A DNA stretch of 64,000 nt from a virus. A model generated the notes under the pieces. The model did not search any database, was not told the DNA's origin, and saw only the letters and a program-made list of their open reading frames with translations. The stretch covers positions 1 to 64,000 of IMG/VR virus record IMGVR_UViG_3300007276_000038; one strand, 5' to 3'. A program made the translations under genes and the position numbers. The stretch's first letter is position 1, and each line of letters starts with the position of its first letter. Positions 8,528 through 33,988 of the stretch are shown in pieces.

Positions 8528-8722
8528 TTAACTACCTTTAAAGGTATGAAACGAATGTATCTCACCCTGTACTTTATAAGAATCAATTAAAATCTTCTTC
8601 ATCTTTAATCCGAACTCACTTGCAGCAATACCACATTTACTAGGAACATGAGTTGCATTAGGTAATCCGCATTCGATGCACTTACCTTCTAGCTTATACT
8701 GTGCTTTGTCGATATTATTCAT
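8528..8722 (-). CDS. Small zinc-ribbon-like protein (64 aa)
   Basis: The N-terminal half has 'KAQYKLEGKCIECGLP', a CxxC knuckle, followed by His and Cys ('THVPSKCG'), so one zinc-binding site is likely. The same KAQxxLEGxCxECG motif occurs in the small gene at 12426-12608, so the two are paralogues. It starts on an ATGA overlap with the methyltransferase and is the last gene of the minus-strand run. A 14-bp palindrome at 8533-8546 lies inside its end. The function is unknown; nucleic-acid or protein binding are both possible. Confidence 0.65.
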   Translation of the reverse strand: MNNIDKAQYKLEGKCIECGLPNATHVPSKCGIAASEFGLKMKKILIDSYKVQGEIHSFHTFKGS

Positions 8723-9393
8723 TTATATCCAATTAACATGTAGCGTGTGTATAAAGGTAGCTTCATTGATCCTTTAAATAGTATTTTAGATAACGGATAC
8801 TTTTCTAATAACTGATCCAATGACTCAGTGATATTTATGTGCCCATCAAGAAAACGATTGTTGTTTGATTGTAATACTACTAACTGATCGGTGCCGACTG
8901 AATCAAACCACGATTCATGCATGTGTTCGCAGCTAGTATTAACTATAACGCTTGGCTTAGTATCTATAAGTGTACCGTTTACTACAAACTCTGGATGCTT
9001 CCAGTTAATAGTTAATATATCGTCTACTACACCTTTATACCGCCAACCATCTACAACAAGGTGTTGGTTAAATTGATCGCTCATCCTTACTGAATGAGGG
9101 TATATATCGAAGCCCCAAACTCGTTCTAATTGGGGAGTTTGTATTAACAATGGTTCAGCTAATACCCCGTACCAAGAAGCTAGCAATGCAAGTGTATGTG
9201 GCCTTACAGGACTGTATTGTGCATACTCTTTGAGTAGCCAGGCTTTGCTTGCTAGTTGTCCTAAACTAAATGCATCTTTATCAAAGTCGCCGCTTGCTGC
9301 TCTACTTACAAAGCTAGCAGGATACTTAAACTCGCTATCTACATAACGAGCTACTTCGTCCCATTCATTAAGACTTATTAAAGGCTGACTCAT
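8719..9393 (-). CDS. Putative SAM-dependent methyltransferase
   Basis: The 224-residue protein has the order of elements of a class I methyltransferase. An N-terminal helical part is followed by 'LALLASWYGVL', a nucleotide/SAM loop-like region around 'VWGFDIYPHSV' with the acidic residue after the second strand, and 'VDDILTINW'. Next comes a catalytic-loop-like 'IVNTSCEHM'. The glycine loop is weaker than usual, so activity is not certain. It overlaps the 1,022-residue repeat protein upstream by 26 bases, and GAGG precedes the ATG. As the second-last gene of the sugar island it could methylate the final product. Confidence 0.6.
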   Translation of the reverse strand: MSQPLISLNEWDEVARYVDSEFKYPASFVSRAASGDFDKDAFSLGQLASKAWLLKEYAQYSPVRPHTLALLASWYGVLAEPLLIQTPQLERVWGFDIYPHSVRMSDQFNQHLVVDGWRYKGVVDDILTINWKHPEFVVNGTLIDTKPSVIVNTSCEHMHESWFDSVGTDQLVVLQSNNNRFLDGHINITESLDQLLEKYPLSKILFKGSMKLPLYTRYMLIGYK

Positions 9394-12300
9394 ACCGTTC
9401 CTCTAACCATTCATAATCATTAATTTTAGCCAGTGCTGCTGCATTGTCTTTAAATTCTAGACCATACTGCTTACCATCTTCTGCACCTAGTTTTGCTTCA
9501 TGTCTAAAAAATGCATCAGGGACAGGATGCAGCCATGCTTCCAAACGATCATTACTTTCCTGATCACCTTTAATTGCTAGCTTAACACATTCTCGGAATG
9601 CGCTGCGCCAGGTTGTTAACCCACTTTCGTTGAAGTATGTTATACAACTTACCTCTGGCACTACTTTAAATCGAGTACTTAAACCAGTAGTGAAGTCTAA
9701 TCCCCAGCTAGTGCTTTCTCGTACTTGCTCTGTGTTAAACAATTTAACACCACCATAACCGTATTCCAATCCTGTAATCGGATTGCGTGAATGCCACACG
9801 TGAACAACTTCCTGGTCATACAGGTCGGGAATATAATTAAATTCAAATTGTTCTTCTATTGCTGCGTCTCCGTCAACTACCCAAAACATTTTAGTATCAG
9901 CTAGTTCTGCTGCTGCTTTGTGTGCTTCGAAGATTCCTTCCACTCCGTGAACCCGTTTAAGGTTTGGTACTTTGTGTGCGAGTCGCTGATATCTAGCATC
10001 AGCACCTTTTTCATTGTAGCTTATAAAAATAATATCGTACGGTTTAATTATAGCTCCAGGCTTTCTAACATATTGCTTGTTTTGTATTTTGTTCAGTCTT
10101 ATAGCATCATCTGTAATTAACTTGGGGTTTAAATCTGTTGGCCATAACCGTAGTCCTCCGTAAGAATGAACAGCTTGAGTCTTAAAGTTTAAGGCTTGCC
10201 AAAGCATAATCTTATTCGCGCTAGGAAGCACACCCTTATCTAGAACTTCTTTTATTACATCAACGTCTTTGTCTACAGTCCACACAAAAGCATTGCCATT
10301 CTTTTGTTGTTCTTTAAGTATTTGCGTTAGTTCTTTTTTGGTTTCTAATTCTAGATGTACTACAGGCCACGTTGGTGCTATGCTTGCGTTTATTTCTAAG
10401 AGCTTTAGGTTATCAAAACGATTAAAGATGATGTCTTGATCATCATAAACATGTATTTTATTAAACGTGTTTTTTGGATACAGTCTGACACCAGTGTGCG
10501 CATCGTTACACTTAAACACATGAACATTATCTTTGTCCCATTGCGTAGGATAATAATCAAAGGCAAATGCAGGATCAAGCTGCACATGCGGATCTATTAC
10601 ATAGTACATGTCGTGTTCACATTCTCGATCGAACTTCTCAAGTTGTTCAATTAAATCAACTGTACTGTCGATTACACAAACAGCATACTCTTTATGCACA
10701 CATGCTGGCTCTCTTATGTATTTTGGTCTTCCTTTATCTAGAGGAACACGAGGACACAGTCTGATTCCACTGTAGTCATATTGCATTAGTGTTTTTGGGT
10801 TTAGCTTTTGCCAAACGTGAGTCTTCCCTTCATCCCACGGTTCCGGGTAATATGTAAAACTAAATTCTTCTAACACGTCGACATTTTCGTCTACTACCCA
10901 GAACCAATCGTACTTGCTTCTAGCGCGACCATCTTCTTCGTCAGTGAATTGTTCGTATTGTACACCACCTACTTCTTGTAAGTATCCTTGATACTTTTTG
11001 TCTTGTTCATTAAACTCTACCGGAACTAATTTTATGCCACCGCACCTGTTGTCACTTACGTTAACAATACTAGGTGGATATCTATGATCTAACTGCCCCG
11101 GAACTTTAAATATATTAATATACTTTTGATCGTGTGTTTCAGGTATCCAAGTGAAGTTGTCAGGTAGTCTAAACTCTTTTGCCACTAACCAGAACATTGA
11201 TGTTTTACTAAGTCGAGCATATTTTGCATAACTAGATAACTCGTGTTCGTCTACAAAAAATACATCGTAACGCATAGGACAAATATTTTCTTGGAACTTC
11301 TTCTTCACTGTATCATAATCGTGGTGCTTGTTTATTAGATAGATACCCGACACTCGCTTGTCGTGGAATTCTGTTATATAAGGACTGTAGCGATATTCGA
11401 GATGACCTTTAATTTTAAATGCGTGTATGTATTCTTGTTCGTGATCTTGAGGCACATATAAGAATTTACCATTTAAGTCGCCGTAATCCCTATCAACAAC
11501 CCAGAACCATTCTGTCTTAGATATGCTGCATAGCTTCTGGAACTTCTCGTCAGTAAATTCTCCTTCGTTAACATAAAACACATTATAGTTAATGTCCTCC
11601 ACGGGGCTTACCCTGTGTATTTTTTCACTAGCATCTTTATAACGCCTAGGAACTAATCGTATGCCGCCAACATTATGCGGATACTTTGTGGTTAGCTGGT
11701 AGGGCATTCTGAAGCAGTGTATGTAATCCTGCTCGAATGGATCTGGCGTCCATTCTAACGTACTTTCCTCAATCTGATACTCTTTATCTATAAGCCAAAC
11801 AAACCCATCTTTATATTCATCTCTTGCACTGTAGTCAGTGACATCGTCAACATATAATATAGGATAACGCTCACTAGCATTATCTAAGCAACCTCTATAT
11901 TTTACTGTTGCTTTTTTCCAATCCCGAGGATACAACCGTACTCCTCCCTCGCCATCTGGGTATTTGTGTTCTAGTTGCCCTTTTAGGTGGAAGTTATGTA
12001 TGTACTCAGGTTCAAACCTATTAGGAACCCAATCAATATCGTTTGCTATTTTGTAGTCTACGTCCACGCACCACACATAACTTGCTGTTGGGTTTTTGTC
12101 GAAGTATTTTCCCGGAACTGTCTTGCGAATGATATCAATTTTCTTTCGAAATCTATTAGTTGAAAATTCTTTTTCACCTGCTGGAGTAATTTTCGGTAAT
12201 AGCCTAAAACCAATGTGCTCACTGGTTGGGCATTTCCAAATGTGTTCGTACACCCTATCACAATGCTCTGGTTTAAAGTCTAATATATCATAATCAGATA

Positions 12301-12433
12301 GTTCTATGTTAGGTTCTATTATCCAAAACATCTGGGTTCTTGAATTAACTTCTTGGATAGAGTTAACCTGTTTTGCAAATGGTAAATGCTCTACTAACGC
12401 AGTATTCTCGCCTAGGTAAAATACGTCATACAT
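9368..12433 (-). CDS. Nine-module GT-A-like repeat protein
   Basis: About 1,022 residues are built from nine tandem, diverged copies of one module of 90-120 residues. Each copy reads roughly 'FWVVDxD', an aromatic strand 'FxWxPxPxDqxYIHvFk', 'QLxxxYP' and 'GGIRLvP'. Only the last copy (about residues 845-880) keeps the metal-site-like VDGD with a full C-terminal extension; it closely resembles the single-copy protein at 33032-33988. The DxD-like site and setting suggest a GT-A glycosyltransferase fold, with the other copies perhaps acting in binding. I chose the ATG at 12433, 9 bases after AAAGG; a TTG lies two codons upstream. It overlaps the small zinc protein by 8 bases. The enzyme class is inferred. 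Confidence 0.65.
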   Translation of the reverse strand: MYDVFYLGENTALVEHLPFAKQVNSIQEVNSRTQMFWIIEPNIELSDYDILDFKPEHCDRVYEHIWKCPTSEHIGFRLLPKITPAGEKEFSTNRFRKKIDIIRKTVPGKYFDKNPTASYVWCVDVDYKIANDIDWVPNRFEPEYIHNFHLKGQLEHKYPDGEGGVRLYPRDWKKATVKYRGCLDNASERYPILYVDDVTDYSARDEYKDGFVWLIDKEYQIEESTLEWTPDPFEQDYIHCFRMPYQLTTKYPHNVGGIRLVPRRYKDASEKIHRVSPVEDINYNVFYVNEGEFTDEKFQKLCSISKTEWFWVVDRDYGDLNGKFLYVPQDHEQEYIHAFKIKGHLEYRYSPYITEFHDKRVSGIYLINKHHDYDTVKKKFQENICPMRYDVFFVDEHELSSYAKYARLSKTSMFWLVAKEFRLPDNFTWIPETHDQKYINIFKVPGQLDHRYPPSIVNVSDNRCGGIKLVPVEFNEQDKKYQGYLQEVGGVQYEQFTDEEDGRARSKYDWFWVVDENVDVLEEFSFTYYPEPWDEGKTHVWQKLNPKTLMQYDYSGIRLCPRVPLDKGRPKYIREPACVHKEYAVCVIDSTVDLIEQLEKFDRECEHDMYYVIDPHVQLDPAFAFDYYPTQWDKDNVHVFKCNDAHTGVRLYPKNTFNKIHVYDDQDIIFNRFDNLKLLEINASIAPTWPVVHLELETKKELTQILKEQQKNGNAFVWTVDKDVDVIKEVLDKGVLPSANKIMLWQALNFKTQAVHSYGGLRLWPTDLNPKLITDDAIRLNKIQNKQYVRKPGAIIKPYDIIFISYNEKGADARYQRLAHKVPNLKRVHGVEGIFEAHKAAAELADTKMFWVVDGDAAIEEQFEFNYIPDLYDQEVVHVWHSRNPITGLEYGYGGVKLFNTEQVRESTSWGLDFTTGLSTRFKVVPEVSCITYFNESGLTTWRSAFRECVKLAIKGDQESNDRLEAWLHPVPDAFFRHEAKLGAEDGKQYGLEFKDNAAALAKINDYEWLEERYESAFNKS

Positions 12434-12608
12434 CGTCAAGACCTTTATTCTGAGAATTCAGGTGTCGTCTGAATATTGCAAGAGCATCTATAACTCGTCT
12501 ATTCGGATGAAAGGGGCATCGAACTGTGTGTTGATCCCTTTTCTCGCCACACTCTAGACATCGCCCTTCTAACATAATTTGGGCTTTTGTAAGTTTAGTC
12601 CTCGGCAT
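12426..12608 (-). CDS. Small zinc-ribbon-like protein (60 aa)
   Basis: It contains 'KAQIMLEGRCLECGEK' followed by His and Cys ('QHTVRCPFHP'), a likely single zinc site, and then a basic helical end. It is a paralogue of 8528-8722 through the shared KAQxxLEGxCxECG motif. I chose the ATG at 12608, where homology to its paralogue begins soon after; another ATG eight codons upstream (12632) would lengthen the overlap with the carbamoyltransferase gene. It links two large genes by short overlaps on both sides. Confidence 0.6.
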   Translation of the reverse strand: MPRTKLTKAQIMLEGRCLECGEKRDQHTVRCPFHPNRRVIDALAIFRRHLNSQNKGLDDV

Positions 12609-14115
12609 CGGAAGTATGAACCTCAATGCCATAAGTCTGCGTAAATGTTAATGCATCGAGTCTATCATTAACAATAGGCTGGCCCTTTATGTTTAAGCTA
12701 GTGTTTAGTAGCATAGGACATCCAGTGCGTTGATAGAAATTATTAATTAATGCATATAGTCCAGGATGCTGTTCTTTGTTAACAGTTTGCACTCTACTAG
12801 TGCCGTCTTTATGCACAATGGCAGGATACGTTGTAGGTGCCTTACATTTAGCTGTGAATTGCATGTACGGACTAATGCATCGATTGGGCATTTCAAAATA
12901 CTCGTGTACATGCTCTTCTAGAATTACTGGCGCAAACGGTCGAAACTCTTGTCTTCTTTTGATAGAGTTAACCTTATCTTTGATGTCACCTCCCCTTGGG
13001 TCTGCCAAAAGGCTGCGGTTTCCTAACGCTCTTGGACCGAATTCCGCTCGACCGTTTGCTATTCCAAAAATTTCATTACGTTCTAATGAACGCAATGCTT
13101 TGTTCACTGGATAAGACCCGCTTATATTTGATCCTAAGTACGGTCCTTTCCATTCTACTTTTCTTGCTGTGTTGTTATAAAGTTCCAATGCTGCTGCACC
13201 CAAGCTACTGCCTGCATCACCTGGGTTAGGCATAATGTGTACATCATTGAAACAATTCAGTAGCTCAGTATTAGCTACACAATTTAGAGCAACACCACCC
13301 ATAAATACTAAATTATTACTTTTTGTAATTTGTTTTGCATATCTAGCGTATGCTATTATACGCTTTTGCGTTTGTAATTGCGCGGCATAAGCCATGTCGA
13401 ATGGGCTTTCCCCGACAAAGTCTTTACTAGGCAATCCTTTTTGTAAGTTCGTTTGCATACGTACTGATTCAGATGGAAACTTAAAAGGATTCTGATGTAT
13501 AAAATACTTTTCTGCCATTACATTGCTAATTCTTAAACCGTCAGTCGGATTACCGTATGCAGCCATTCCCATTAGTATATACTCATCTTCCATAGGCTTT
13601 AAGCCACAGCGATATGTCACAGCACTGTAAAATAGACCCAAGCTACTAGGAAAGTTAGTACTGTGTTTCTTAGATAGTTTTCCATTTTTCCACGACCATA
13701 TACTAGAGGTAGTGTATTCCCCTATCGCATCTAATACTACTACTGCACATTCATCAAACGTGCTTGTTAATACGCCTGCTGCTGCGTGTGTCTCGTGGTG
13801 CCAATAAGATTTAATAGGAATGTTTTTGAGTGCAGGATAAAATTTACGTATCCAATCCTTTTGTGATAATTCACCTAGAGCACGAAAGTTACCACTAGTG
13901 GCTTGTCTTAATTTTTTTGCCCAATTTTTTTCATGTAATACAATGACGTCAGGAGTTCCGAAGCTTAATGCTTCGTGTACTATTTCTTTATTAAGAAAAG
14001 GATCATTTTTTAATTTACTGTAGCGTTCGCTGTGCGCAGCAAAAACAATCTGATTGTCTTTTACTACAGTAATAGCAGCATCATGGAACATACTGCTTAT
14101 GCCCATTATAATCAT
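12595..14115 (-). CDS. NodU/CmcH/TobZ-family carbamoyltransferase
   Basis: A 506-residue member of the O-carbamoyltransferase family, which moves a carbamoyl group from carbamoyl phosphate, via a carbamoyl-adenylate, to a hydroxyl on a sugar or natural product. The N-terminus shows 'MGISSMFHDAA', the Kae1-like nucleotide-binding start, and 'AAHSERYSKLKND'; 'HHETHAAAGV' gives the metal-binding histidines. The C-terminal YrdC-like half has 'EFGPRALGNRS' at about residue 355 and 'FRPFAPVILEE', both highly typical. It is slightly shorter than the usual 550-600 residues. It starts 14 bases after the repeat-bearing gene at 14130. In the island it would decorate a sugar hydroxyl; the true acceptor is unknown. 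Confidence 0.9.
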   Translation of the reverse strand: MIIMGISSMFHDAAITVVKDNQIVFAAHSERYSKLKNDPFLNKEIVHEALSFGTPDVIVLHEKNWAKKLRQATSGNFRALGELSQKDWIRKFYPALKNIPIKSYWHHETHAAAGVLTSTFDECAVVVLDAIGEYTTSSIWSWKNGKLSKKHSTNFPSSLGLFYSAVTYRCGLKPMEDEYILMGMAAYGNPTDGLRISNVMAEKYFIHQNPFKFPSESVRMQTNLQKGLPSKDFVGESPFDMAYAAQLQTQKRIIAYARYAKQITKSNNLVFMGGVALNCVANTELLNCFNDVHIMPNPGDAGSSLGAAALELYNNTARKVEWKGPYLGSNISGSYPVNKALRSLERNEIFGIANGRAEFGPRALGNRSLLADPRGGDIKDKVNSIKRRQEFRPFAPVILEEHVHEYFEMPNRCISPYMQFTAKCKAPTTYPAIVHKDGTSRVQTVNKEQHPGLYALINNFYQRTGCPMLLNTSLNIKGQPIVNDRLDALTFTQTYGIEVHTSDAED

Positions 14116-16995: not shown

Positions 16996-17739
16996 CTATT
17001 TTTGTGTTACTATGTCGTACGGTTCTTGGTTGTCTTCGTCGTACCAATACAAGCTACGGTGCGGCCTATCATCTTCTTTATACACAGCATCGCTTACATA
17101 AAAGAATAACCTAAATGTTTTCCGGCTCATCCCAGTTGGACAGTTTAATGGTTCTGGATAACCATGAAAGCCTCGCTTGTGGTAGCGCCAAATAACTGCT
17201 CTATTAAAAAGCGGCGCTACGCTTTGTATAGTCTGCTTGTTATCAAAATCCCTAAACTCTAAGTGGCCGCCGTACTCTTCTTTCCAGTCAGAATTTAAGT
17301 AAACAATCATGCTTAACATACGGTGTACTTTAATCTGATCATTCCAATTAAAGTCAGTATGTATACCTAGCTTGTCGCCGCGACAGCTCTTGCTATATCC
17401 AGCACCTATTAAATATGGGTCAGGGATTAAATCTTTAATGCCAGTGATATTACTTAGCCACTTCATTCCTTGTTGACTATGTATCTGGTTAACAAGTTCT
17501 TGAGCTAATGGTGCTTCAGTCATGTCAGCACATTCTTGCATGTATCCACCTTTGCGTGTAAATTCTGACCAATATTTTTCTGGTATTGTATCTGCTTCTT
17601 GTTCTAGAGCAAGTGCGGTATTGTCAGGCAAAAAATTATCCAATGTTATCATCGGGTAGGGTGGCGTGCCTACAAAACGATCATTGAGCTTGATTGTGTC
17701 ATTAAACGTATGTGTGATGTGTCGTAATATAGTACTCAT
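16996..17739 (-). CDS. 2-oxoglutarate/Fe(II)-dependent oxygenase
   Basis: The 247-residue protein has the facial triad and cosubstrate site of the 2OG-Fe(II) oxygenase (prolyl-hydroxylase-like) superfamily. HTD lies at about H127/D129 ('LGIHTDFNWND'), followed by 'SMIVYLNSDW' and 'EYGGHLEF'; the distal His is in 'KRGFHGYPEP', and the Arg that binds 2OG is in 'SRKTFRLFFYVSD'. It should hydroxylate or otherwise oxidise a sugar, lipid or protein substrate. It overlaps the upstream GT-like gene by ATGA, so coupled translation is likely. It ends with TAG, which shows that TAG serves as an ordinary stop in this genome. Confidence 0.85.
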   Translation of the reverse strand: MSTILRHITHTFNDTIKLNDRFVGTPPYPMITLDNFLPDNTALALEQEADTIPEKYWSEFTRKGGYMQECADMTEAPLAQELVNQIHSQQGMKWLSNITGIKDLIPDPYLIGAGYSKSCRGDKLGIHTDFNWNDQIKVHRMLSMIVYLNSDWKEEYGGHLEFRDFDNKQTIQSVAPLFNRAVIWRYHKRGFHGYPEPLNCPTGMSRKTFRLFFYVSDAVYKEDDRPHRSLYWYDEDNQEPYDIVTQK

Positions 17740-19871
17740 GGCTTATAGGTCCAATTCTTAATATCCACAAAATCATAAGATAAGTTCCTACCTAGGTATC
17801 GAGGGTTTTCCGGATCAGAGAATTTGATATAATTGTTTAATAGCATTTCAGGCATATAATCAGTACTGTATGCTAGTTTTATTAACAGTGCTTTATTATA
17901 TTCTAATTTAGGTTTTAATATTTCATACATGTCATTGCATTCTTTGGGTGTCATCTTGCTAATCTTTTTAACTTCCATGGCTACGCCGACGGCTCTTAAA
18001 TTATCATCTTTTTCTTCGTCAAACGAATAATCAAAAAGCTCATCATATAGTTTAAATCCATAGTGCGTTAATGCATCTTTACTAAAACACGGAGAACCTA
18101 ATACTATAAACGGCTTTTTCATGAATAATGCCTGAGCCGTTTTTTCAGTAATGACGGGAACTTCTGTAGTTGACTCAGTAATTATATCAACAAAACTAGT
18201 ATAATATTGATCCGGCAAGTTAAACGAGTCTTTGTGATTTTCGAAATCATCACCTATAGTTCTAATCTTGTCATCGTACCACCTGAATTCATAGAGTGAG
18301 GCTGCATGGTTGTGCCAACTCACCAATCCGTTAGGGTGATCAACTAATCCGTACTTTGCAAGCATATCTATAAGCATACATCTATGCTGATGCGGCTGCA
18401 TGTTTAAATTTATATAGTTGTGCGAAAAATCCTTAGTAATGTTTTCTGTGTTCTTGAAATTATTTGTAATGTTTTCTCGTTCGTACTCAATAGTTCTAAG
18501 CATAAAATAAGTCGGCCAGGCTTGTGTATTATGTTTGCGTACACCCTGCATAGTTACTTGCTCACTTAGCCACTTCGAATCACAAGAAAGCCAACAACTG
18601 TTTAACTCTATATTATTATTATTAACAGCGTCAACCATAGGTTTTGGTATTATAGGACACCACTCTGTGTACCCGAAGTAGTAGACCTTAGGTATTTTCA
18701 TGTACTCAGCAGCTTGTTCTATTATTTCTCCTGCATATATGTCGTTGTTTAAATCAAAAGAAAGGTGTGTCGGATAAATTCCTTTTTCTACTTTTTTATA
18801 AAATATCCTTGCGTCGCGTTGCTCTGTGAAACGCGGCCAGGTTCGAGTGTAGCAGTAAATTCTATCTAGCACTGCCTCAGGAAAATTAGCAGCATTAAGA
18901 GATTCTTGTGCTATATTGTAGTTATGATCTAATTTAGGTTTTAGAATATCAAACCATTCTTCTAATTTATCTCGATTATCCACAACATTTTGAATATTTT
19001 TTGTTATAAGTTCTACACGCTTACCTATATCCGGTTCGCTGTCAAACGAGTAATCAAATATTTCATCGTACAACACAAATCCTTTTTCTTGAAGCCTACG
19101 GTAATGACCCTCAGTACCTAGAATTAAAAAAGGGCGTTTAAGAAATATAGGCATCGCGGTCTTTTCAGACAAGACAGTAGAGATGACATCGCTTTCTGTT
19201 ACTACATGCAAAAATGAAGACATAAATTCTTCATCGACTGAGTAAGGGTGGCATCGGTGCCAGCTATCATTATTAACATAATGATCGTTGTGTATTGGAA
19301 CACCGTTATAATGTTTGAATTCATAATTTGCATCTCCCCCCTCATTCCAAATATCATAATGATATGTTACATTACCTCGGTCTATTAGCTTGTGTTTGGC
19401 TAGCTCGTCTATTAATAAATTCCTATGTAGCTTTGGTTTATGCATATAACATAGATAAGAACTACTAAATTTTCCTTGGTCTACCCGTTCAGTCTGGTAA
19501 AAAGAATCAAGGTCAGGTAGTTCTAGTTCACTAACAGTGTGCAGTAAATAGTAATCCCACCAAGCTACAACTGTAACTAATTCTTTTGGCATTGCGTTGC
19601 CCCAGATGCTATTGACTTTTTCTTCTAACTGCTCCTGGTCAAACATACATGTTATAATAGTAGTTCTAATTTTATATGTTTCTATTAACTCCCTGACTGC
19701 TGGGGTAAGATGCGTTTCGTCTATACTAAATTCTGCCTGCCAATTAAAATTCACAGTGATGGCCGACCAATGTTCATTGGGGTTACCCCATTCGTTGAAT
19801 TCCTCTAAAGCTTCTCGAATAAGTTCATATACATTTTCTTCGTCATTCCAAGCGCAAATAGATACTACCAT
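17736..19871 (-). CDS. Two-module putative glycosyltransferase
   Basis: The 711-residue protein is a tandem fusion of two copies of one domain (about 1-350 and 365-711). Each copy has 'HRNLLIDxLA' or a similar opening, a 'VTESD'/'ITEST' strand, and 'SEKTAMPIFLKRPFLILG' (about 234) or 'TEKTAQALFMKKPFIVLG' (about 575). This is followed by 'GFxLYDExFDYSFD', then a D-rich helix and 'LKPKLxxN'. The E-K-T...kPF-G block resembles the donor-binding end of GT-B enzymes such as fucosyltransferase-like GT10 proteins; the exact family is not certain. I chose ATG 19871, with GGAG 9 bases upstream, over an upstream TTG; it overlaps the stop of the next GT-like gene (ATGGTAG). Confidence 0.7.
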   Translation of the reverse strand: MVVSICAWNDEENVYELIREALEEFNEWGNPNEHWSAITVNFNWQAEFSIDETHLTPAVRELIETYKIRTTIITCMFDQEQLEEKVNSIWGNAMPKELVTVVAWWDYYLLHTVSELELPDLDSFYQTERVDQGKFSSSYLCYMHKPKLHRNLLIDELAKHKLIDRGNVTYHYDIWNEGGDANYEFKHYNGVPIHNDHYVNNDSWHRCHPYSVDEEFMSSFLHVVTESDVISTVLSEKTAMPIFLKRPFLILGTEGHYRRLQEKGFVLYDEIFDYSFDSEPDIGKRVELITKNIQNVVDNRDKLEEWFDILKPKLDHNYNIAQESLNAANFPEAVLDRIYCYTRTWPRFTEQRDARIFYKKVEKGIYPTHLSFDLNNDIYAGEIIEQAAEYMKIPKVYYFGYTEWCPIIPKPMVDAVNNNNIELNSCWLSCDSKWLSEQVTMQGVRKHNTQAWPTYFMLRTIEYERENITNNFKNTENITKDFSHNYINLNMQPHQHRCMLIDMLAKYGLVDHPNGLVSWHNHAASLYEFRWYDDKIRTIGDDFENHKDSFNLPDQYYTSFVDIITESTTEVPVITEKTAQALFMKKPFIVLGSPCFSKDALTHYGFKLYDELFDYSFDEEKDDNLRAVGVAMEVKKISKMTPKECNDMYEILKPKLEYNKALLIKLAYSTDYMPEMLLNNYIKFSDPENPRYLGRNLSYDFVDIKNWTYKP

Positions 19872-20914
19872 TTTTGTATTCTCCAATCAGTGAAAATTTG
19901 TGCATCTTCTTCTTCGTTTGCTTGCGGGAAAGGGAGCGCAAAATCATTTAACCTTTCTAACATCGGTAATGGCACGTTTGGTTTTTCTTTAACTAATTGC
20001 CAGGCCAGTTCCTCGTTAAAATCTAACTTGCTTTTTATCTTGTTAAACATAGCAACAAGATGATCTTTGTTGTCAACAATCTGAATAATGTTGTCGGTGT
20101 ACATTTGTGTACGTTGTTCTATATCATCGACCACATCAAAACTATAATCAAATAGCTCGGTGTATAGTTTAAACCCTAGGTTCTCAAGCTCACTGTGGAA
20201 TCCTACTGAGCCTAATACTAAAAAAGGGCGCTTAGCGAATATAGGTGTTGCTGTTTTCTCAGTAATCCCTGTGTATTCTCCGCAATCGCTTTCTGTAACG
20301 CAATGCATAAAGCTAGTCATAAATTCTAGATCAAAGTTCCAAGACGTGAAACCATTTTCGTAACCGTTATCTCTAGTTATTGGCTTTCCGTCATAGTAGT
20401 TAAACGTAGTTTTTTCGTCGAGTGTGGACCACACATCATGCCAGTAAGTTACAATTCCTTTACTAATTAAGTCATACTCAGCAAGTTTATCTATCAATAA
20501 ATTCCTATGTAGCTTTGGTTTATGCATATAGCACAAAAATGGATGATCAAATACTGCGCTGTCTTTTTCTTTTAGGTAAGTGTTGTTTCGAAGCTTTGCT
20601 TCACTTCTTAAAAAATAATAATCCCACCATGGGTATACTAGTATATTTTTGGGTAGTTTGTTATTAAATTGCGTAGCGATATATTTCTCTAGGCCTTTAT
20701 GCGTTGCCATAAACGTAGTTACTTTTACAAGTATGTTGTCAGGATTGTCTAGTATAAGGTTACACATCAACTCAGAAAAATGCACTGCGTACTCAAGTTG
20801 ATGCAAGTAATAAACGTTGACGCTATCGTCGTTGCTAAGTATTTCCTGGATCTGTTGTTCTACCGGAACATCAGGTTCTTGCCATGCCCACAAATAAATA
20901 TTTCTAGTTGCCAT
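19865..20914 (-). CDS. Putative glycosyltransferase (single EKT module)
   Basis: A 349-residue protein with one copy of the module found in 17736-19871. It has 'FLCYMHKPKLHRNLLIDKLA', 'HCVTESDCGEYTGITEKTA' (about 210), 'AKRPFLVLGSVGFHSELENL' and 'GFKLYTELFDYSFD'. The N-terminal third, with 'LVYPWWDYYFLRSE', matches the start of the first module of its neighbour. Sequence and position show that the neighbouring gene arose by duplication of this type. The stop is TAG. It overlaps the cobalamin radical SAM gene by one base (TAATG). The glycosyltransferase call rests on the GT-B-like donor-site block and context. Confidence 0.7.
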   Translation of the reverse strand: MATRNIYLWAWQEPDVPVEQQIQEILSNDDSVNVYYLHQLEYAVHFSELMCNLILDNPDNILVKVTTFMATHKGLEKYIATQFNNKLPKNILVYPWWDYYFLRSEAKLRNNTYLKEKDSAVFDHPFLCYMHKPKLHRNLLIDKLAEYDLISKGIVTYWHDVWSTLDEKTTFNYYDGKPITRDNGYENGFTSWNFDLEFMTSFMHCVTESDCGEYTGITEKTATPIFAKRPFLVLGSVGFHSELENLGFKLYTELFDYSFDVVDDIEQRTQMYTDNIIQIVDNKDHLVAMFNKIKSKLDFNEELAWQLVKEKPNVPLPMLERLNDFALPFPQANEEEDAQIFTDWRIQKW

Positions 20915-25126: not shown

Positions 25127-26463
25127 AATAGTTTTTTATTAACCACAATGTCATATACTTCCCCGTACGCTCTTGACCAGGGGTTGTCTATAAATATTCT
25201 ATAATTGTGATTTAATGTCTCCTTAACATCGTTGCGAAATTGTTTTATTTTTTCTTGATCCCATGTTGCAATGTCTCTACAAATATTCACAATAGCGTCC
25301 ATTCTATCATTGTGATCGATTATGTCATCGTATCCTTCATCCCACCATGTGTCAAACGTTTTGTAACCAAACTCTTTAAGTCGGGCTAATGTGCCTTGTG
25401 TAGCTACTAAAATAAATGGATGCTTATACTTTATCGGCTTAATGCACTTTTCTGTTAGCGCCATAACATTAGTATGAAAAGATGTTTCAGTACATACACT
25501 TACTAGTGAGTCTTGGTAAAACGGAGTCATGTCAGAGTCACCGTCATAAATAGGGTCTGGTACTTGGTTTAGATTGTCTATATTCAACGGAAACGAATCG
25601 TACAATTTATCTAGGTCTCTATGGGTTAGCCCGTGTGCTTGGATCATATCCATGTTAATGTTGCCTTTAATGTTACCATTTTCGTCGTGTTCTTGAAGGC
25701 TAAACAAGCTGTGTTCCAGTAAATTATACTTTGCAAACATAGTAGCTAGCACTATTCTATGCATACGGCTACGCTTATTAAAGCACAAAAACAAATGTGA
25801 AGGTTCAATATCGAGTCTATACAAAGGTTCAGGCTGTTTTTGTAAATATGCATCACTAGCAAAGTTTTGTGTACTAGGAAAATGCTGTACTAAATGCATT
25901 CTATCCTCAGGAAGAATACCGTTACGCATAACGTATTCACTGTAAATTTTCTGCGTATTGCCTGTTCCCGTAACATAAATTACTTTATTCATGGGCAAAT
26001 TATGGTAGCGACAAAACTCCCTAATATAGTTTAAGTGATTGTCCCAAACAAATGCTTCTAATGCATGATCAATTACTAAGTAACCATTACCGCCTCTAAT
26101 TAAATCAAGGGTCTGATTTACTGTATTACTTTCAGAAATAATATCGTGTGGCGGCTTGAAATTACAGTCAAATCCGTTTTGGTGGCCCAATACAAATAAT
26201 AAAATAAACTTATCTTTCGCTCTTAATTCGTTGCAACCCAGTACTCTAAAATTGCTATCGTTATAAAAAGGACCGCTACTCTTTGTTATCAAGCCCCATC
26301 TATCATCCATTAAATTGTACTCGGTGTGCGGTATTTGTATGCCGGGAATTTTACTAGCTAAGGTTAAAAGATCAGGCGTAGTGCTGTTTGGCAATGGGCC
26401 AGTCGGACCTTGCCAATTAAATGCTATATAAACTTCTTCTAACGGTTCTGGTACTTCAATCAT
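25123..26463 (-). CDS. Putative glycosyltransferase (EKT module)
   Basis: The 446-residue protein ends with the same block as its neighbours: 'SVCTETSFHTNVMALTEKCI' (about 315-335), 'KPIKYKHPFILVA', 'LKEFGYKTFDTWWDEGYDD' and a final helix with 'LNHNYRIF'. Here the EKT is EKC. The N-terminal half has 'IYVTGTGNTQKIYSEYVMRN' and 'LFLCFNKRSRMHRIVLATMF', the latter matching the 'HRxLL' strand of other members. This form, with 'DExYD'-like acidic residues before the last helix, is common in marine phages. It is coupled by ATGA or near-ATGA overlaps on both sides. Confidence 0.68.
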   Translation of the reverse strand: MIEVPEPLEEVYIAFNWQGPTGPLPNSTTPDLLTLASKIPGIQIPHTEYNLMDDRWGLITKSSGPFYNDSNFRVLGCNELRAKDKFILLFVLGHQNGFDCNFKPPHDIISESNTVNQTLDLIRGGNGYLVIDHALEAFVWDNHLNYIREFCRYHNLPMNKVIYVTGTGNTQKIYSEYVMRNGILPEDRMHLVQHFPSTQNFASDAYLQKQPEPLYRLDIEPSHLFLCFNKRSRMHRIVLATMFAKYNLLEHSLFSLQEHDENGNIKGNINMDMIQAHGLTHRDLDKLYDSFPLNIDNLNQVPDPIYDGDSDMTPFYQDSLVSVCTETSFHTNVMALTEKCIKPIKYKHPFILVATQGTLARLKEFGYKTFDTWWDEGYDDIIDHNDRMDAIVNICRDIATWDQEKIKQFRNDVKETLNHNYRIFIDNPWSRAYGEVYDIVVNKKLL

Positions 26464-27980
26464 AATTCTTTCTCATTAAATAGCTCAGCCAGTTCCGGGA
26501 ACGTGCCTGCAAAATCAGTTCCTCGACGATCATCTATCTGTTTAGAGTATTGCTCTAAATTAGTTATAGCACGGTCTCGATCTTCATGACTAATAGTGGC
26601 GCGTTCGTTACGCATCCACTCTAAATTACGCTTAACTTTGTCTATTTCAAAATCATAAAACCCCACAAAGTTTCCTTCTTCGGGGTATGATTCCATAAAG
26701 TCGATTGCATCTTCTAAGTACACATCGAACTTCTCCGGCAATATATTAATACTTTGCCAACTTGGTGCGCGTAATAACGGAACATCAAACCATATGCGTT
26801 GTCGCGGATGCACAGTAAAATCTGGATGTGTATTGTACGGGTCAACGATTGGTATGTATGAAATGCCTTGCGCATCTGAACTATATGACTTTCTTAGCTC
26901 AAGTATATAGCGCAAAAAATCACTAAAGCGATTTAAACTCATAACATTAAATGTATTAATAAACGTTATGTTTGTATTACGTGTTCCTGCTAGTACCTCA
27001 TGCACGTTTCTTTGCAATATTTCATAATCTAAGCCTGTGCGTATATACTCAGCTTGTTTTCCTATAGTGTCAAGACTAACAAACAATGCGTTATGTTTTG
27101 TTGCCATGTTAACATACCAGTGGTTTCCTGAACCAGGATTAAAACGACTATGCTCCCATATTTGTATCTCTTCTAATTTCTTAAGTTTAGCTAAAAACTT
27201 TTCCCACAGTTCTTCTTTGGGTGGGCACAAATTAGTAGTAATGCTTAGTTCTAGCCATGCGTTAGGATTCTCATATATATAATCTAATACGCGATATGTG
27301 TTAACGTCCATTAACGGCTCGCCGCCTGTCATTCTAAATACTTCTAGTGTTTCGTATAGCTCTGGCCACCAGCGCCAAAATGCTTCTACATAAGGATTAT
27401 CTTTTTGTGCTACTTTCATGGGCATTAATCCATCACGCTCAAGATATTCTATAGCATTATGTTTCCCAGGGTTGCCAGACGCATCAATAATTTCTAGCGG
27501 ACCATGTTGTTTTATTTCTTCTTCCCACGTAGTACTGAGATGCGGGCTACAGTATACACACTTAAAATTACATGCTTGGTTAAAATTAACTTCAACATAA
27601 CGTGGATTCATTTTGCGTGTATCAGTGCTTGCTATAATATCTTTACGTGAATTCTGTGCCCAATACTCGCCTGAGCGGTATACTCTATCGCTGGTACCGC
27701 CTGAATCCTCAATCTTCCAACAGTAACTACAACCTTCAGGACGCTTTCCTTGTAACATTTGCTTTCTTTCTAACCACTTCTGATTAGTGTTGTGTAATGC
27801 ACTAGGATCATTTTCAAGTTGTCCTACACTAATTTTATGGGTGGGAGGATGATAACAACTTTGTGTCATGCCGTTTGTTAAGTGCATTGATACTTGTGCC
27901 CATTTAGCATAGCACATAGTCTCAGAGATATTGTCTAGTTGTTGCAGTGCGATATCACTAGCACTTTTATAATCACTCAT
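26460..27980 (-). CDS. Radical SAM protein with N-terminal twitch-like Cys domain
   Basis: The 506-residue protein has an unusual order: an N-terminal Cys-rich region ('CYAKWAQVSMHL', 'SCYHPPTHKI', 'SALHNT', 'GCSYCWKIED') that looks like a twitch/SPASM-type auxiliary cluster site, placed before the radical SAM core. The core has 'ACNFKCVYCSPH' (Cys at about 137, 141 and 144) and 'FRMTGGEPLMD'. Proteins of this layout are named N-terminal-twitch radical SAM in databases; many SPASM/twitch enzymes modify peptides, others act on small molecules. It is a paralogue of 30027-31454. The two enclose a pair of SGNH genes. It joins both neighbours by ATGA. Confidence 0.82.
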   Translation of the reverse strand: MSDYKSASDIALQQLDNISETMCYAKWAQVSMHLTNGMTQSCYHPPTHKISVGQLENDPSALHNTNQKWLERKQMLQGKRPEGCSYCWKIEDSGGTSDRVYRSGEYWAQNSRKDIIASTDTRKMNPRYVEVNFNQACNFKCVYCSPHLSTTWEEEIKQHGPLEIIDASGNPGKHNAIEYLERDGLMPMKVAQKDNPYVEAFWRWWPELYETLEVFRMTGGEPLMDVNTYRVLDYIYENPNAWLELSITTNLCPPKEELWEKFLAKLKKLEEIQIWEHSRFNPGSGNHWYVNMATKHNALFVSLDTIGKQAEYIRTGLDYEILQRNVHEVLAGTRNTNITFINTFNVMSLNRFSDFLRYILELRKSYSSDAQGISYIPIVDPYNTHPDFTVHPRQRIWFDVPLLRAPSWQSINILPEKFDVYLEDAIDFMESYPEEGNFVGFYDFEIDKVKRNLEWMRNERATISHEDRDRAITNLEQYSKQIDDRRGTDFAGTFPELAELFNEKEL

Positions 27981-28990
27981 AATACACCGTTATGTTGGAG
28001 CAGTTCTTTAATTAATACAGCTATTTTATAATGTCCATTTGCAGTAGGATGTCCGCAAGGCGTGATCCACTTGCCACCTTTTTTCGGATCAATCAGAGTC
28101 TTAGAAAGTTCAGTAGTTATACCTTCTAAGTTAAGCATTAGATCTAGCAAACTATCGTGACCGTCGAGTTGGGCAACTCGATCGAATGGTAGACTCTTTA
28201 AATAGTTATACAAAAAGTCTTTGTTTTGTTGCTCAGCTAATGGATCGAGCACACTGTTAAAGACTTCGTCTATTGTTGGATTTTTGTCTAACGCTGGAAT
28301 AATTGTTAAATCAGCATTGGTCATTTTGCACCAGGTATCAATAAACTTAAATGCTCGCACTAACGCTTTATATTGGTATATGTCTTTCGTGAGCACATGT
28401 TTAGTTAATCCTTGAATTAGATAGTCTTCGTCAGCCTGCCATCCCGTCGTCGTGACAGATGGATTTAACAAGTGAAGTGTTTCGTAATCGTTTGAAATAT
28501 GATTATAGTCAGCGAATTCATTTGCAATCACGTCTATTCTAAAATACCCTGTTGGCATAAACAACACGATAATTTCATCAGCTAAGTGCCAATCGATATT
28601 ATAAAGAAACAGCCTATCCACTGCTGCTATATTCCCTCTGCCAGGTGCACCTAGATTAATAATAGACCATTCATCATTTAATAGTGTACCTAATTGCGCA
28701 GGAAAAGAATTATTTAATTCCATAATCCACGTTTGCAATGTGTTAGTATCTTTGTCGTAAACTAACTTATATTTTTCAGCTAGCGATTCTAGCAGATCAG
28801 GATCATGACAACTGTGTCCTGCATAATCCCATAACCCAAAGCATCCAGTTTCCTGCTTAGGGAGACAATCATCAAGTAATTCTTGGTCGTAAGCTCCTCT
28901 ACCGTAGGTATAACTACACCCCACAGCAACAATAGCTTTACGCTTTTGCGCTAGGTCTAAATTTATAGTTTGTACGTTGTGTGGTATCAT
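27977..28990 (-). CDS. SGNH-hydrolase-like protein
   Basis: The 337-residue protein begins with 'KAIVAVGCSYTYGRGAYDQE', the GxS block with nucleophile Ser, then 'SIINLGAPGRGNIAAVDRLF' with the block II Gly and block III Asn, and 'LADEIIVLFMPTGYFRID'. Near the C-terminus 'TPCGHPTANGHYKIAV' places a conserved His. It is a tandem paralogue of 28987-30030. I chose ATG 28990, which makes an ATGA overlap with its upstream neighbour; a TTG two codons upstream is the alternative. The role may be ester hydrolysis or acyl transfer on a modified sugar or peptide. The pairing with radical SAM genes is the best clue. Confidence 0.68.
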   Translation of the reverse strand: MIPHNVQTINLDLAQKRKAIVAVGCSYTYGRGAYDQELLDDCLPKQETGCFGLWDYAGHSCHDPDLLESLAEKYKLVYDKDTNTLQTWIMELNNSFPAQLGTLLNDEWSIINLGAPGRGNIAAVDRLFLYNIDWHLADEIIVLFMPTGYFRIDVIANEFADYNHISNDYETLHLLNPSVTTTGWQADEDYLIQGLTKHVLTKDIYQYKALVRAFKFIDTWCKMTNADLTIIPALDKNPTIDEVFNSVLDPLAEQQNKDFLYNYLKSLPFDRVAQLDGHDSLLDLMLNLEGITTELSKTLIDPKKGGKWITPCGHPTANGHYKIAVLIKELLQHNGVL

Positions 28991-30030
28991 ATCCAATTAC
29001 GATCTTTAAAGACTGTAGCTAATTCTGTTGCTAACATAGCATGTGCGATTTTACTTGGATGACCACACGGCGTTAAATAATTATGATCAATCGCTATTTT
29101 TTTATTATGCACTATATCAAGTATATCGTACTTAGATGCATCAACACCGTCTAAAGTTAATAACCAGTCGCCGAACGATTTATGATTTTGTATGTTTATG
29201 ACGTTGTTGTGCGGCGCTGCTTTAATATATCTGAATGCGTCTAGCTGGCCATCAGTTAAGTTATCCAAATCAACACCGTCGGGAGTACGACCAGCAAAAT
29301 CTTGAATCATTTCATCAAACGTAGGCAAGGCTCGGAATGCAGGGAATATTAGTAACTTAGCATTATACATGTTGCACCACTTACTGAGTACCTTGTAGTT
29401 TCTTAATAAGAATCTATATTCGTATGATGTTTCTATTGTAGTCTGCGTATATCCGTACTCTAGGTAATCTGTCGGCGTTACTAATTCATCCTTTGTCTTA
29501 TCGGTAGGAAAGATTGCTCTATAATCTTGCCCTATCTTAGAAAATTCCTGCAAATGACTTGAGACTAAATCTGTCCTTAATAAATCAGTTGCCATAAACA
29601 CTACAATGATTTCATCAGCTAAGTGCCAATCTATATCATAAATGAACAATCGATCAATTGCTGATAGATTACCATTGCCTGGTTCACCCAGATTTATTGG
29701 TGTGTACGTATTGTTAAGTTCTACTTCAGCTAATTGCGTAACAAAACTGTTTTGATTTTCCATGAGTGCTGTGTCTAATGTGTTTCTATCTTGATAGAAT
29801 GGCAAGTTAAACTTCTCGCCTAGACGCTTAAGGGTAGCCTGCTCGTGTCCCCTGTCTCTATAGTCCCAATCACCCCAAGCACCAGGTGCTAACGGTTTTT
29901 CTTCTTGCAGCAACTCGAGGTCATACGCACCTTTACCCCAAACATAACTACACCCTAGTCCCACTATTGCTCGCCTAGTTCTTGCTAGGTCTTTATTAAT
30001 TATTGCAATGTCCTTGCTTTTGTGTTTCAT
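28987..30030 (-). CDS. SGNH-hydrolase-like protein (tandem paralogue)
   Basis: The 347-residue protein aligns by eye along its whole length with 27977-28990: 'RRAIVGLGCSYVWGKGAYDL', 'PINLGEPGNGNLSAIDRLF', 'LADEIIVVFMATDLLRTD' and 'YLTPCGHPSKIAHAMLA'. The Ser, Gly, Asn and the late His of the SGNH scheme all seem to be present. The two copies lie head to tail between two paralogous radical SAM genes, so the block arose by duplication of a two-gene unit with some rearrangement. It is coupled to the upstream radical SAM gene by ATGA. Confidence 0.68.
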   Translation of the reverse strand: MKHKSKDIAIINKDLARTRRAIVGLGCSYVWGKGAYDLELLQEEKPLAPGAWGDWDYRDRGHEQATLKRLGEKFNLPFYQDRNTLDTALMENQNSFVTQLAEVELNNTYTPINLGEPGNGNLSAIDRLFIYDIDWHLADEIIVVFMATDLLRTDLVSSHLQEFSKIGQDYRAIFPTDKTKDELVTPTDYLEYGYTQTTIETSYEYRFLLRNYKVLSKWCNMYNAKLLIFPAFRALPTFDEMIQDFAGRTPDGVDLDNLTDGQLDAFRYIKAAPHNNVINIQNHKSFGDWLLTLDGVDASKYDILDIVHNKKIAIDHNYLTPCGHPSKIAHAMLATELATVFKDRNWI

Positions 30031-31454
30031 TCTGATCTCGCTATGATGTCTTTTTCGTCTTGCTCGCTAAATTCTTTGCACATGTAATAAAACTCTGTGT
30101 ACTCCGGAAATGTCTCTAAAAAGTTTGTTCCTCTACGTTTGTCGTATTCGTTAAACCAGCGATAAAAATCTACTCGCCCCTGACGGATTCTTTCATCGTC
30201 ATAATTTTCTGTAGCAAAATAATCGCGTACTCTGCGGAAACCTTCGTACTCTAATTCACTAAACATAGTAACATCTTGCTCGTCCATGTTATCTTCGATA
30301 AAGTTTAGCGTAGTGTCAAAGTAATGCAAAAACTCGTGCTTGGGTAAAATGTGCATATCGTACTGCAATGGTTCCTTAAGGTAAGGCGTGTCGAATCGTA
30401 TCTTGCGTATGAGTGGATCTATTTCGCTATCAGGTATAATATCATTATACTTCTTGCGCCACTCTAGTATCTTAGCCAAGAACTCCGGGAATGTAGCCAC
30501 ACTTAGTATATTAAACGTACACATGTGAGTAATGTGATTCTTTACTCCGCGTAGGTATATGTCTTGATTCTTTTCCCATATCTCCAAGTTTAGTCCTGTA
30601 CGTAAATACTCTGCACGTTTACCCCAGGCTTCCATACTAGAAAACAACTTAAACTTTTTAATAGCACTAGCTTCAAGTAATCCACTAACATTAGTTACTA
30701 GCTTTTCGACGTGTCTGTGCGTCATTCCTAGGTTACTGTTCATGTTAATTTCTAAATTAGGCTTAGGATCGTTGTGTAAATCGTCGAATAGTTTCCATGT
30801 TGTTTTGTGTAATAAAGGTTCGCCGCCCGTGATTCGTAATATGTTAAGCGTTTTAGATACTTCAGGCCACCACTCCCACCATGCATCGATGTAAGGGTTA
30901 TTATCTTCTTCTATTGCTTCAAACCAGTTAATGTCTACACTGTGATTCTTAACGTCTGTTACAGGCCCATGCTTCTTAACTTCTTGATAGAAGCTACTAC
31001 TATGCATAGGATGACAGTAACCGCATTTAAAATTACATTCGTTTGAAAACGCTACTTCTATGTACTCCGGGTTAACTTTAAAGTCGTATGGATTCTTTTT
31101 AATTTCATCCATACGTTCCGGGGTGTAGATACTAGCATTACGAATCTTACGATCAGATATATGTGTATCACTTAGTCCTTCTACGTTCCAGCAATACTTA
31201 CAGCCTGTGGGTTTTTCTCCGACGAGCATCTCTGCGCGTTCACGTATCTTTTCTTTAGTGTTATGCAAAGCACTAGGGTTTCTATTTAGTTCAGCAAGAG
31301 GTATATCATGCGGATGTGGATGATAACAACTGTGTGTTTGTCCTCGGTGTAAATATATCGTTGTGTGATGCCATTTAGCTAAACAAAATGTAGGACCCAT
31401 TTCTTCATTCAGCTTGGCATCAATAGAATTAATACGTTCTATGTGTCTACTCAT
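30027..31454 (-). CDS. Radical SAM protein with N-terminal twitch-like Cys domain (paralogue)
   Basis: The 475-residue protein repeats the plan of 26460-27980: 'CLAKWHHTTIYLHRGQTHSC', 'YHPHPHDIPL', 'SALHNT' and 'GCKYCWNVEG' in the N-terminal Cys-rich region. The core then has 'ECNFKCGYCHPMH' (Cys at about 140, 144 and 147) and 'LRITGGEPLLHKTTW'. The distance between the two Cys regions differs by only a few residues from the paralogue. They could act on two sites of one substrate or be specialised copies. It starts three bases after the dehydrogenase stop and overlaps the SGNH gene by ATGA. Confidence 0.82.
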   Translation of the reverse strand: MSRHIERINSIDAKLNEEMGPTFCLAKWHHTTIYLHRGQTHSCYHPHPHDIPLAELNRNPSALHNTKEKIRERAEMLVGEKPTGCKYCWNVEGLSDTHISDRKIRNASIYTPERMDEIKKNPYDFKVNPEYIEVAFSNECNFKCGYCHPMHSSSFYQEVKKHGPVTDVKNHSVDINWFEAIEEDNNPYIDAWWEWWPEVSKTLNILRITGGEPLLHKTTWKLFDDLHNDPKPNLEINMNSNLGMTHRHVEKLVTNVSGLLEASAIKKFKLFSSMEAWGKRAEYLRTGLNLEIWEKNQDIYLRGVKNHITHMCTFNILSVATFPEFLAKILEWRKKYNDIIPDSEIDPLIRKIRFDTPYLKEPLQYDMHILPKHEFLHYFDTTLNFIEDNMDEQDVTMFSELEYEGFRRVRDYFATENYDDERIRQGRVDFYRWFNEYDKRRGTNFLETFPEYTEFYYMCKEFSEQDEKDIIARSE

Positions 31455-33031: not shown

Positions 33032-33988
33032 CTAGAGCATACCGTTTTCTAGTAAGTCGAGTATTTGCTTTTCGCTTACCATAGAACCCCAGCGTCTAGG
33101 ATTAGTATAAGTTTGTTTAAAGAATCTAGACACGTTTTCATCAGGATCAAACAACATCATAGAATTAACTTTCTCGTTTAGTGTGCGTCCTAGTGTGCAG
33201 GCTTCTTCATACAAATCTTTGCCTTCTAGCAAGTTCTGTTGTTCAACAAAGTATGTTTTAAACCATTCGTAATCTGCGATTTGATTAGTCACAAAGTCTA
33301 GATCTAGTATAGCGTTATGGGCACCCAATCTTGCTCCGTATATAGCCCACAATCCGTTTTCAACATCGCTACCGATGTTACACCAAGTCTGTAGTCTGTT
33401 GTAGTTTCCGTACCATATACGTTCTTTGAACTTGTCAGGATTGACTCGCTTGCCTTGGTCTAGACTCATCTTGACGCCTTCTCTGAATCCTGAACGGAAT
33501 GCTTGAAAGGGACTAGCAGTCTGATGTATTTCGCTATAGATATCGTTTAACTGTATATAGTTTAGCTTCCAACAAAACTCCATGCCTTCTTCATCGTCTG
33601 AAGATTCATGTGTTTGTATAGTTTTAGTATACTCAGTTGGCCAGCACTTTAATCCGCCGTTGCCGTACACTAAACCATTTAGCAAGTTCTTTGCGTTCCA
33701 ACTAAAAATGCTTTCGCTTATGCTGTGACCGTCTCTATCAGTGCTCGGAAAATCTAATGTCTGCTCAAAGAAATCATCCATCACAACGTTGTCGCCATCC
33801 ACAGTAATAAAGCGTTCTGTTTCACTTTGCATTGCACAAGCCTTGTGTGCTGCATCGAACCCCTTGACTCCATGCACACGCTTAGCCCAAGGAACTTTGT
33901 TTAGCAAGTCAGCCCAATGTTTTTCACAATTAGGTTCGTCATACGAAATATAAAAGATATCTAATTCATTCACATCTACTTTAGTCAT
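33032..33988 (-). CDS. GT-A-like protein, single module
   Basis: The 318-residue protein is a stand-alone version of the last module of the nine-module protein 9368-12433: 'LDIFYISYDEPNCEKHWADL', 'AKRVHGVKGFDAAHKACA', 'FITVDGDNVVMDD' (DxD-like site at about 63-72), 'FSWNAKNLLNGLVYGNGGLK' and a C-terminal domain containing 'QAFRSGFREGVKMSLDQG', also present in the long protein. The fold and DxD-like site suggest a nucleotide-sugar transferase. It overlaps the upstream unknown gene by 8 bases and has GAGG 9 bases before its ATG. It ends with TAG. Confidence 0.65.
   Translation of the reverse strand: MTKVDVNELDIFYISYDEPNCEKHWADLLNKVPWAKRVHGVKGFDAAHKACAMQSETERFITVDGDNVVMDDFFEQTLDFPSTDRDGHSISESIFSWNAKNLLNGLVYGNGGLKCWPTEYTKTIQTHESSDDEEGMEFCWKLNYIQLNDIYSEIHQTASPFQAFRSGFREGVKMSLDQGKRVNPDKFKERIWYGNYNRLQTWCNIGSDVENGLWAIYGARLGAHNAILDLDFVTNQIADYEWFKTYFVEQQNLLEGKDLYEEACTLGRTLNEKVNSMMLFDPDENVSRFFKQTYTNPRRWGSMVSEKQILDLLENGML

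Follow-up and report, generated by a model that had tools for sequence, protein, structure and literature searches.

Both the GT-A fold and glycosyltransferase pseudo-domains that stand singly beside an active transferase are already known. In the collagen lysyl hydroxylase/glycosyltransferase LH3 (PLOD3), an active GT-A-like domain comes first and is followed in tandem by one accessory domain of glycosyltransferase fold that has lost its activity (PMC6082870). The phage proteins described here share this tandem of active-looking and probably inactive copies, but they have up to 14 shortened modules placed before a predicted catalytic module at the C-terminus, and LH3 has an added hydroxylase domain. 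The tandem polysaccharide polymerases K4CP and heparosan synthase also carry several GT-A domains per chain: both of their domains are active and full-size, whereas all but one of the phage modules are truncated, mostly without the motifs.

Transferases of the GT2 type, such as WrtF, ArnC, GtrB, PcManGT and SunS, share the fold and the DxD motif of the terminal module, but they have no tandem array, and the multi-module protein and its stand-alone relative do not match their Pfam family; TM-scores are at most 0.47. As for the genomic context, a cluster of Pelagibacter phage HTVC008M similarly brings together a glycosyltransferase, a methyltransferase, a Nol-like carbamoyltransferase, a UDP-glucose dehydrogenase and a 2OG oxygenase; its transferases, however, are ordinary ones, and no module of the multi-module family was found there. 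An unnamed phage family with arrays of up to about 14 glycosyltransferase pseudo-domains, in labile number, did not appear in any of the libraries and papers that we searched.

Nine modules in one protein

The window, by which we mean the whole stretch of 64 kb that was analysed, is part of a viral contig of 95,373 bases. One of its genes encodes a protein of 1,021 amino acids, in which a profile made from a hand alignment finds nine modules:

9371..12433, minus strand: multi-module GT-A protein, 1,021 aa, nine modules; ATG at 12433, stop at 9368-9370
12143..12433, minus strand: module 1, aa 1-97; degenerate, EPN replaces DxD, no G...AH
11876..12142, minus strand: module 2, aa 98-186; degenerate, DVD retained, invariant residues 42% (alignment of 14 proteins)
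11591..11875, minus strand: module 3, aa 187-281; degenerate, DKE
11285..11590, minus strand: module 4, aa 282-383; degenerate, DRD
10970..11284, minus strand: module 5, aa 384-488; degenerate, AKE
10706..10969, minus strand: module 6, aa 489-576; degenerate, DEN, invariant residues 36% (alignment of 14 proteins)
10406..10705, minus strand: module 7, aa 577-676; degenerate, DPH, 7-8 block repeated in some relatives
10049..10405, minus strand: module 8, aa 677-795; degenerate, DKD, 7-8 block repeated in some relatives
9371..10048, minus strand: module 9, aa 796-1021; intact GT-A module, predicted catalytic, with G...AH, VDGD, YGYGGVKL, WRSAFRE and a helical C-terminal extension

The refined repeat profile scores the nine modules at 56-93 bits, while shuffled sequences reach at most about 4.4 bits per domain. 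A second profile was made of 38 modules, each of them terminal or stand-alone and none internal: in this protein it recovers nine domains, neither more nor fewer, at places identical to those of the repeat profile, with a c-E of about 1e-3 or better for eight of them and of 0.012 for the first. Since this profile has never seen an internal module, the support that it gives to the repeats is free of circularity. Profile-profile comparison (hhalign) of each internal class with terminal modules yields E-values between 3e-5 and 2e-17, whereas an unrelated control stays at 0.02 to 0.6. These comparisons show that the internal modules are homologous to the terminal one, and the nine tandem modules proposed in an earlier note on this DNA, which had suggested a profile search as a check, are confirmed in three ways that agree. 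A single continuous fold without repeats, which the same note had named as the contrary outcome, is ruled out by the nine domains of the second profile and by the full-length model discussed below.

The earlier note had also taken a second, shorter protein for a lone copy of the last module, and this reading holds:

33035..33988, minus strand: stand-alone single-module protein, 318 aa; 34% identical to module 9 over 180 residues, and alignable to it through the C-terminal extension

The stand-alone protein is also present in 11 of 20 related contigs that have the multi-module protein. Conversely, 19 of the 40 contigs found through the stand-alone protein hold 10-16 module matches in total, which implies a long multi-module protein besides the stand-alone one. 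Both counts are lower bounds, because the contigs are fragments.

The fold of the terminal module and the degeneracy of the others

An AlphaFold2 model of the terminal module, computed with 38 sequences, has a pLDDT of 91.3. Compared with solved structures by Foldseek, it yields 50 matches at E <= 0.001, nearly all of them GT-A glycosyltransferases at a probability of ~1: WrtF, ArnC, GtrB, PcManGT, SunS, polypeptide GalNAc-transferase, cellulose synthase and RmlT are among them. The sugar-nucleotide pyrophosphorylase HddC, which has a similar general fold, ranks only 36th, below the transferases, and was set aside. The model thus assigns a GT-A fold to the terminal module, with a Rossmann-like alpha/beta half that runs on into the DxD strand, and glycosyltransferase activity is predicted from this fold together with the DxD motif for metal and sugar nucleotide. 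The TM-scores against solved GT-A structures are modest, from 0.3 to 0.47, which makes the family a remote branch, far from any solved enzyme.

No family of Pfam, PHROGs or NCBIfam fits the multi-module protein or its stand-alone relative above cut-off. Pfam Glycos_transf_2 (PF00535) does not match the window's own proteins above its curated cut-off, and gives weak matches in 7 of 38 family members, the best at E 0.0036; library matches to zf-H3C2 and HSP82-like families are no better than chance, and solved structures searched by sequence gave no match. The predicted structures of two proteins of uncultured Caudovirales phages that carry no functional annotation, A0A6J5L5L5 (1,076 aa) and A0A6J5LK21 (804 aa), match the terminal module with a TM-score of 0.91: judging by these models, both are evidently members of the multi-module family.

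The model of the full-length protein has a pLDDT of 81 and a pTM of 0.41, which means that the modules are fairly well formed and that their relative placement carries no confidence. It is through this model that the internal modules were compared with GT-A structures. They appear in it as short alpha/beta units with one helix ahead of the DxD strand; the best match of the whole among solved structures is LH3, and both K4CP and heparosan synthase are also found.

The differences between the last module and the others lie mainly in two segments. In the last module, the order of elements is strand, helix, strand, helix with the G...AH segment, and then the DxD strand. In most internal modules, the model secondary structure has just one short helix between the first strand and the DxD strand. 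Internal modules of the window protein accordingly have 23-38 residues between the first strand and the DxD position, compared with about 49 in the last module. These spacings were read directly from the protein, as hmmalign misplaced the first strand of terminal modules. The second segment is the helical extension with WRSAFRE, which belongs to the last module only. Among all the modules collected, 76 of the 77 terminal and 25 of the 27 single ones retain G...AH, as do only 2 of the 434 internal ones; among distinct sequences, DxD is retained in 63 of 64 terminal modules, where it is of the type VDGD/VDAD, in 24 of 24 single modules, and in 79 of 366 internal ones.

The GT-A-like reading of the earlier note is thus borne out, as is its picture of a chain of degenerate copies that ends in an intact one, with the parts that bind the nucleotide missing upstream. 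Its claim that the acidic site and the C-terminal extension are both confined to the last copy needs to be divided: the extension is indeed found there only, but modules 2, 4 and 8 also hold a D-x-D. Going by the sequences, the true mark of the last copy is the G...AH segment before the DxD, together with the helical extension.

An enzyme of this fold would be expected to have a complete nucleotide-binding half and a DxD, and by the counts just given (434 modules scored for G...AH, 366 for DxD) the internal modules fall short of this. Since the modules of the array lack part of the nucleotide-binding half as well as the C-terminal half, they are probably not enzymes. Some of them, of classes 6 and 8, retain both a D-x-D and a YGG strand, and may have kept residual binding of metal or of a sugar phosphate.

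This bears on the idea of an assembly line, in which several internal modules would still be active and add different sugars in turn, as in the chondroitin polymerase K4CP. The presence of K4CP and heparosan synthase among the structural matches of the full-length model, and the fraction of internal modules with a DxD, would agree with it. However, the losses, namely of the C-terminal extension, of the G...AH and of part of the stretch that separates the first strand from the DxD, make an assembly line of active modules very unlikely; moreover, a unit of about 95 residues is, to our knowledge, too small for any known GT-A transferase.

Copy number, module order and selection

The family occurs in hundreds of IMG/VR contigs, with more than 590 candidate stretches among the matches listed. 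Relatives were also found in seven bacterial genomes, mostly MAGs, whose neighbouring genes were examined: in a Neomarinimicrobiota MAG, a single-module relative adjoins genes for a UDP-glucose dehydrogenase, a DegT protein and a radical SAM protein. By contrast with this abundance in uncultured aquatic phages, the family is absent from the annotated phage records and family libraries searched: with the two window proteins and two divergent relatives as tblastn queries, a search of 50,697 phage records gave no match at the thresholds used. No description of such a family was found among open-licence papers.

Complete proteins have from 1 to 15 modules, every value being occupied, and the intact module is always the last. 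On a tree of terminal modules, obtained by a quick search with support by SH-aLRT only, the number of modules requires at least 34 changes. The modules fall into nine position classes, whose order is constant in all close relatives, and the arrays have grown by two routes. The first is the repetition of tandem 7-8 blocks, seen in contigs L083, L098, L105 and L076: the order in L083 is 1-2-3-4-5-6-7-8-7-8-7-8-7-8-9. The second is the insertion of modules resembling classes 2 and 3 between positions 5 and 6, in most of the forms with 10 modules and in L085, L086, L100, L104 and L075.

In two contigs, L119 (5447-7663) and L172 (3374-5431), the repeat profile recognises the terminal GT-A module alone and matches nothing in the roughly 470-540 residues ahead of it; this N-terminal part is either unrelated or highly diverged.

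That the number of modules shifts so repeatedly among phages suggests that the dead copies perhaps do a useful job, such as holding a sugar chain. The earlier note had thought of a processive or acceptor-binding ruler, which goes further than these results do. It is tempting to see in the array a molecular ruler, whose number of modules sets the length of the glycan that is made or of the acceptor that is accommodated, so that a change in copy number retunes the chain length. All copy numbers from 1 to 15, the many changes on the tree, and growth by tandem blocks in an order that is otherwise constant would agree with such a ruler. However, the modules are not interchangeable: a conserved sequence class of its own marks every position, and this fits specific binding sites better than it fits a uniform ruler. 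We regard the ruler as rather improbable: it is a special case with which the variation in copy number is compatible, just as it is, equally, with an array that binds the acceptor or with a scaffold.

A further alternative is that the array is a by-product of recombination, made of nearly neutral repeats without function. The number of repeats is indeed unstable, and closely related contigs have mosaic modules: between the multi-module genes of L074 and L079, modules 3-7 are 97-100% identical, modules 1-2 are 71-78% identical and modules 8-10 are 87-94% identical, a pattern that suggests recombination inside the array. But the degenerate modules show no decay. When close relatives are compared, each module, whether internal or terminal, mostly has a dN/dS of 0.01-0.2; the degenerate modules are under purifying selection. 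Among the 14 aligned proteins, the invariant residues of modules 2 and 6 (42% and 36%) compare with 31% in the catalytic core. An array without function is hardly credible in view of this conservation.

The cassette and a proposed role for the array

The multi-module gene stands between two others, with which it forms a cassette:

12595..14115, minus strand: O-carbamoyltransferase (Carbam_trans_N and _C), upstream cassette gene
8719..9393, minus strand: methyltransferase-like protein, 224 aa, downstream cassette gene; overlaps the end of the multi-module gene

The first is of the NodU/CmcH type, with both Pfam domains above cut-off (PF02543, E 1e-39; PF16861, E 5e-55). The second gives weak class I methyltransferase signals only, such as Methyltransf_25 at E 4e-4 in relatives, and none in the 224-residue protein of the window. 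In 30 distinct contigs with long forms of the protein, a single strand carries first the carbamoyltransferase gene, then the multi-module gene, then the methyltransferase-like gene. The cluster of the window also includes a UDP-glucose/GDP-mannose dehydrogenase, an epimerase, a DegT aminotransferase, radical SAM proteins and a 2OG oxygenase. In a divergent group of contigs (L110, L112, L117, L120, L122 and L128), the methyltransferase-like protein encoded downstream exceeds that of the window in length, at about 330-480 aa, and its N-terminal region looks repetitive.

The main rival to a role in handling glycans is a scaffold that binds proteins: the array would recruit other enzymes of the pathway, or a protein substrate such as a tail fibre. 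The conserved cassette and the strong sequence conservation of several modules speak for it. However, the partners are identical whether the protein has 7 or 14 modules, and related phages with 6-8 modules of other lineages have other neighbours. We consider the scaffold unlikely, although it is the strongest of the alternatives.

The explanation that we prefer, and to which we give somewhat better than an even chance, combines a single catalytic GT-A module at the C-terminus with eight modules of GT-A descent that form a non-catalytic array and position the acceptor, within a glycan pathway. The array would bind an acceptor glycan, or the carrier of one, and hold it so that sugar transfer by the terminal module occurs at a defined point; the carbamoyltransferase and the methyltransferase-like protein encoded alongside would then modify the product. 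We infer the binding of an acceptor from the conservation of the modules, their origin as a sugar-handling fold and the precedent of LH3. Such a pathway would be encoded by the phage and yield a modified glycan of the surface or of the virion, carbamoylated and probably methylated. The cassette itself points to phage-made glycans that are carbamoylated and perhaps methylated.

A more ambitious version of this explanation, which we put forward tentatively and hold to be doubtful as it stands, is that an intact glycosyltransferase module was repeatedly copied into a non-catalytic, glycan-binding array, tunable from 1 to about 14 copies, that sets the site or the distance along the chain at which the single active module works, and by which phages retune their glycan. 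If the array does bind the acceptor glycan, then the forms with 1 to 15 modules are a natural series in which the number of binding sites can be set against the product.

Other duplications are found in the same region. A protein of 716 aa (17736-19886, minus strand) seems to contain the same domain twice in tandem, a domain that is single in a neighbouring protein of 349 aa (19865-20914, minus strand): they have in common a motif of the type HRNLLID / HRCMLID, with no convincing Pfam match, and the longer one is a second protein with a duplicated domain in this cluster. Also on the minus strand, two similar radical SAM proteins (26460-27980 and 30027-31454) flank two similar GDSL/SGNH-like proteins (27977-28996 and 28987-30030), as if a block had been duplicated. 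Finally, a single ORF of 5,500 aa occupies positions 45933-62435 of the window, minus strand, beside genes that resemble those of tail fibres.
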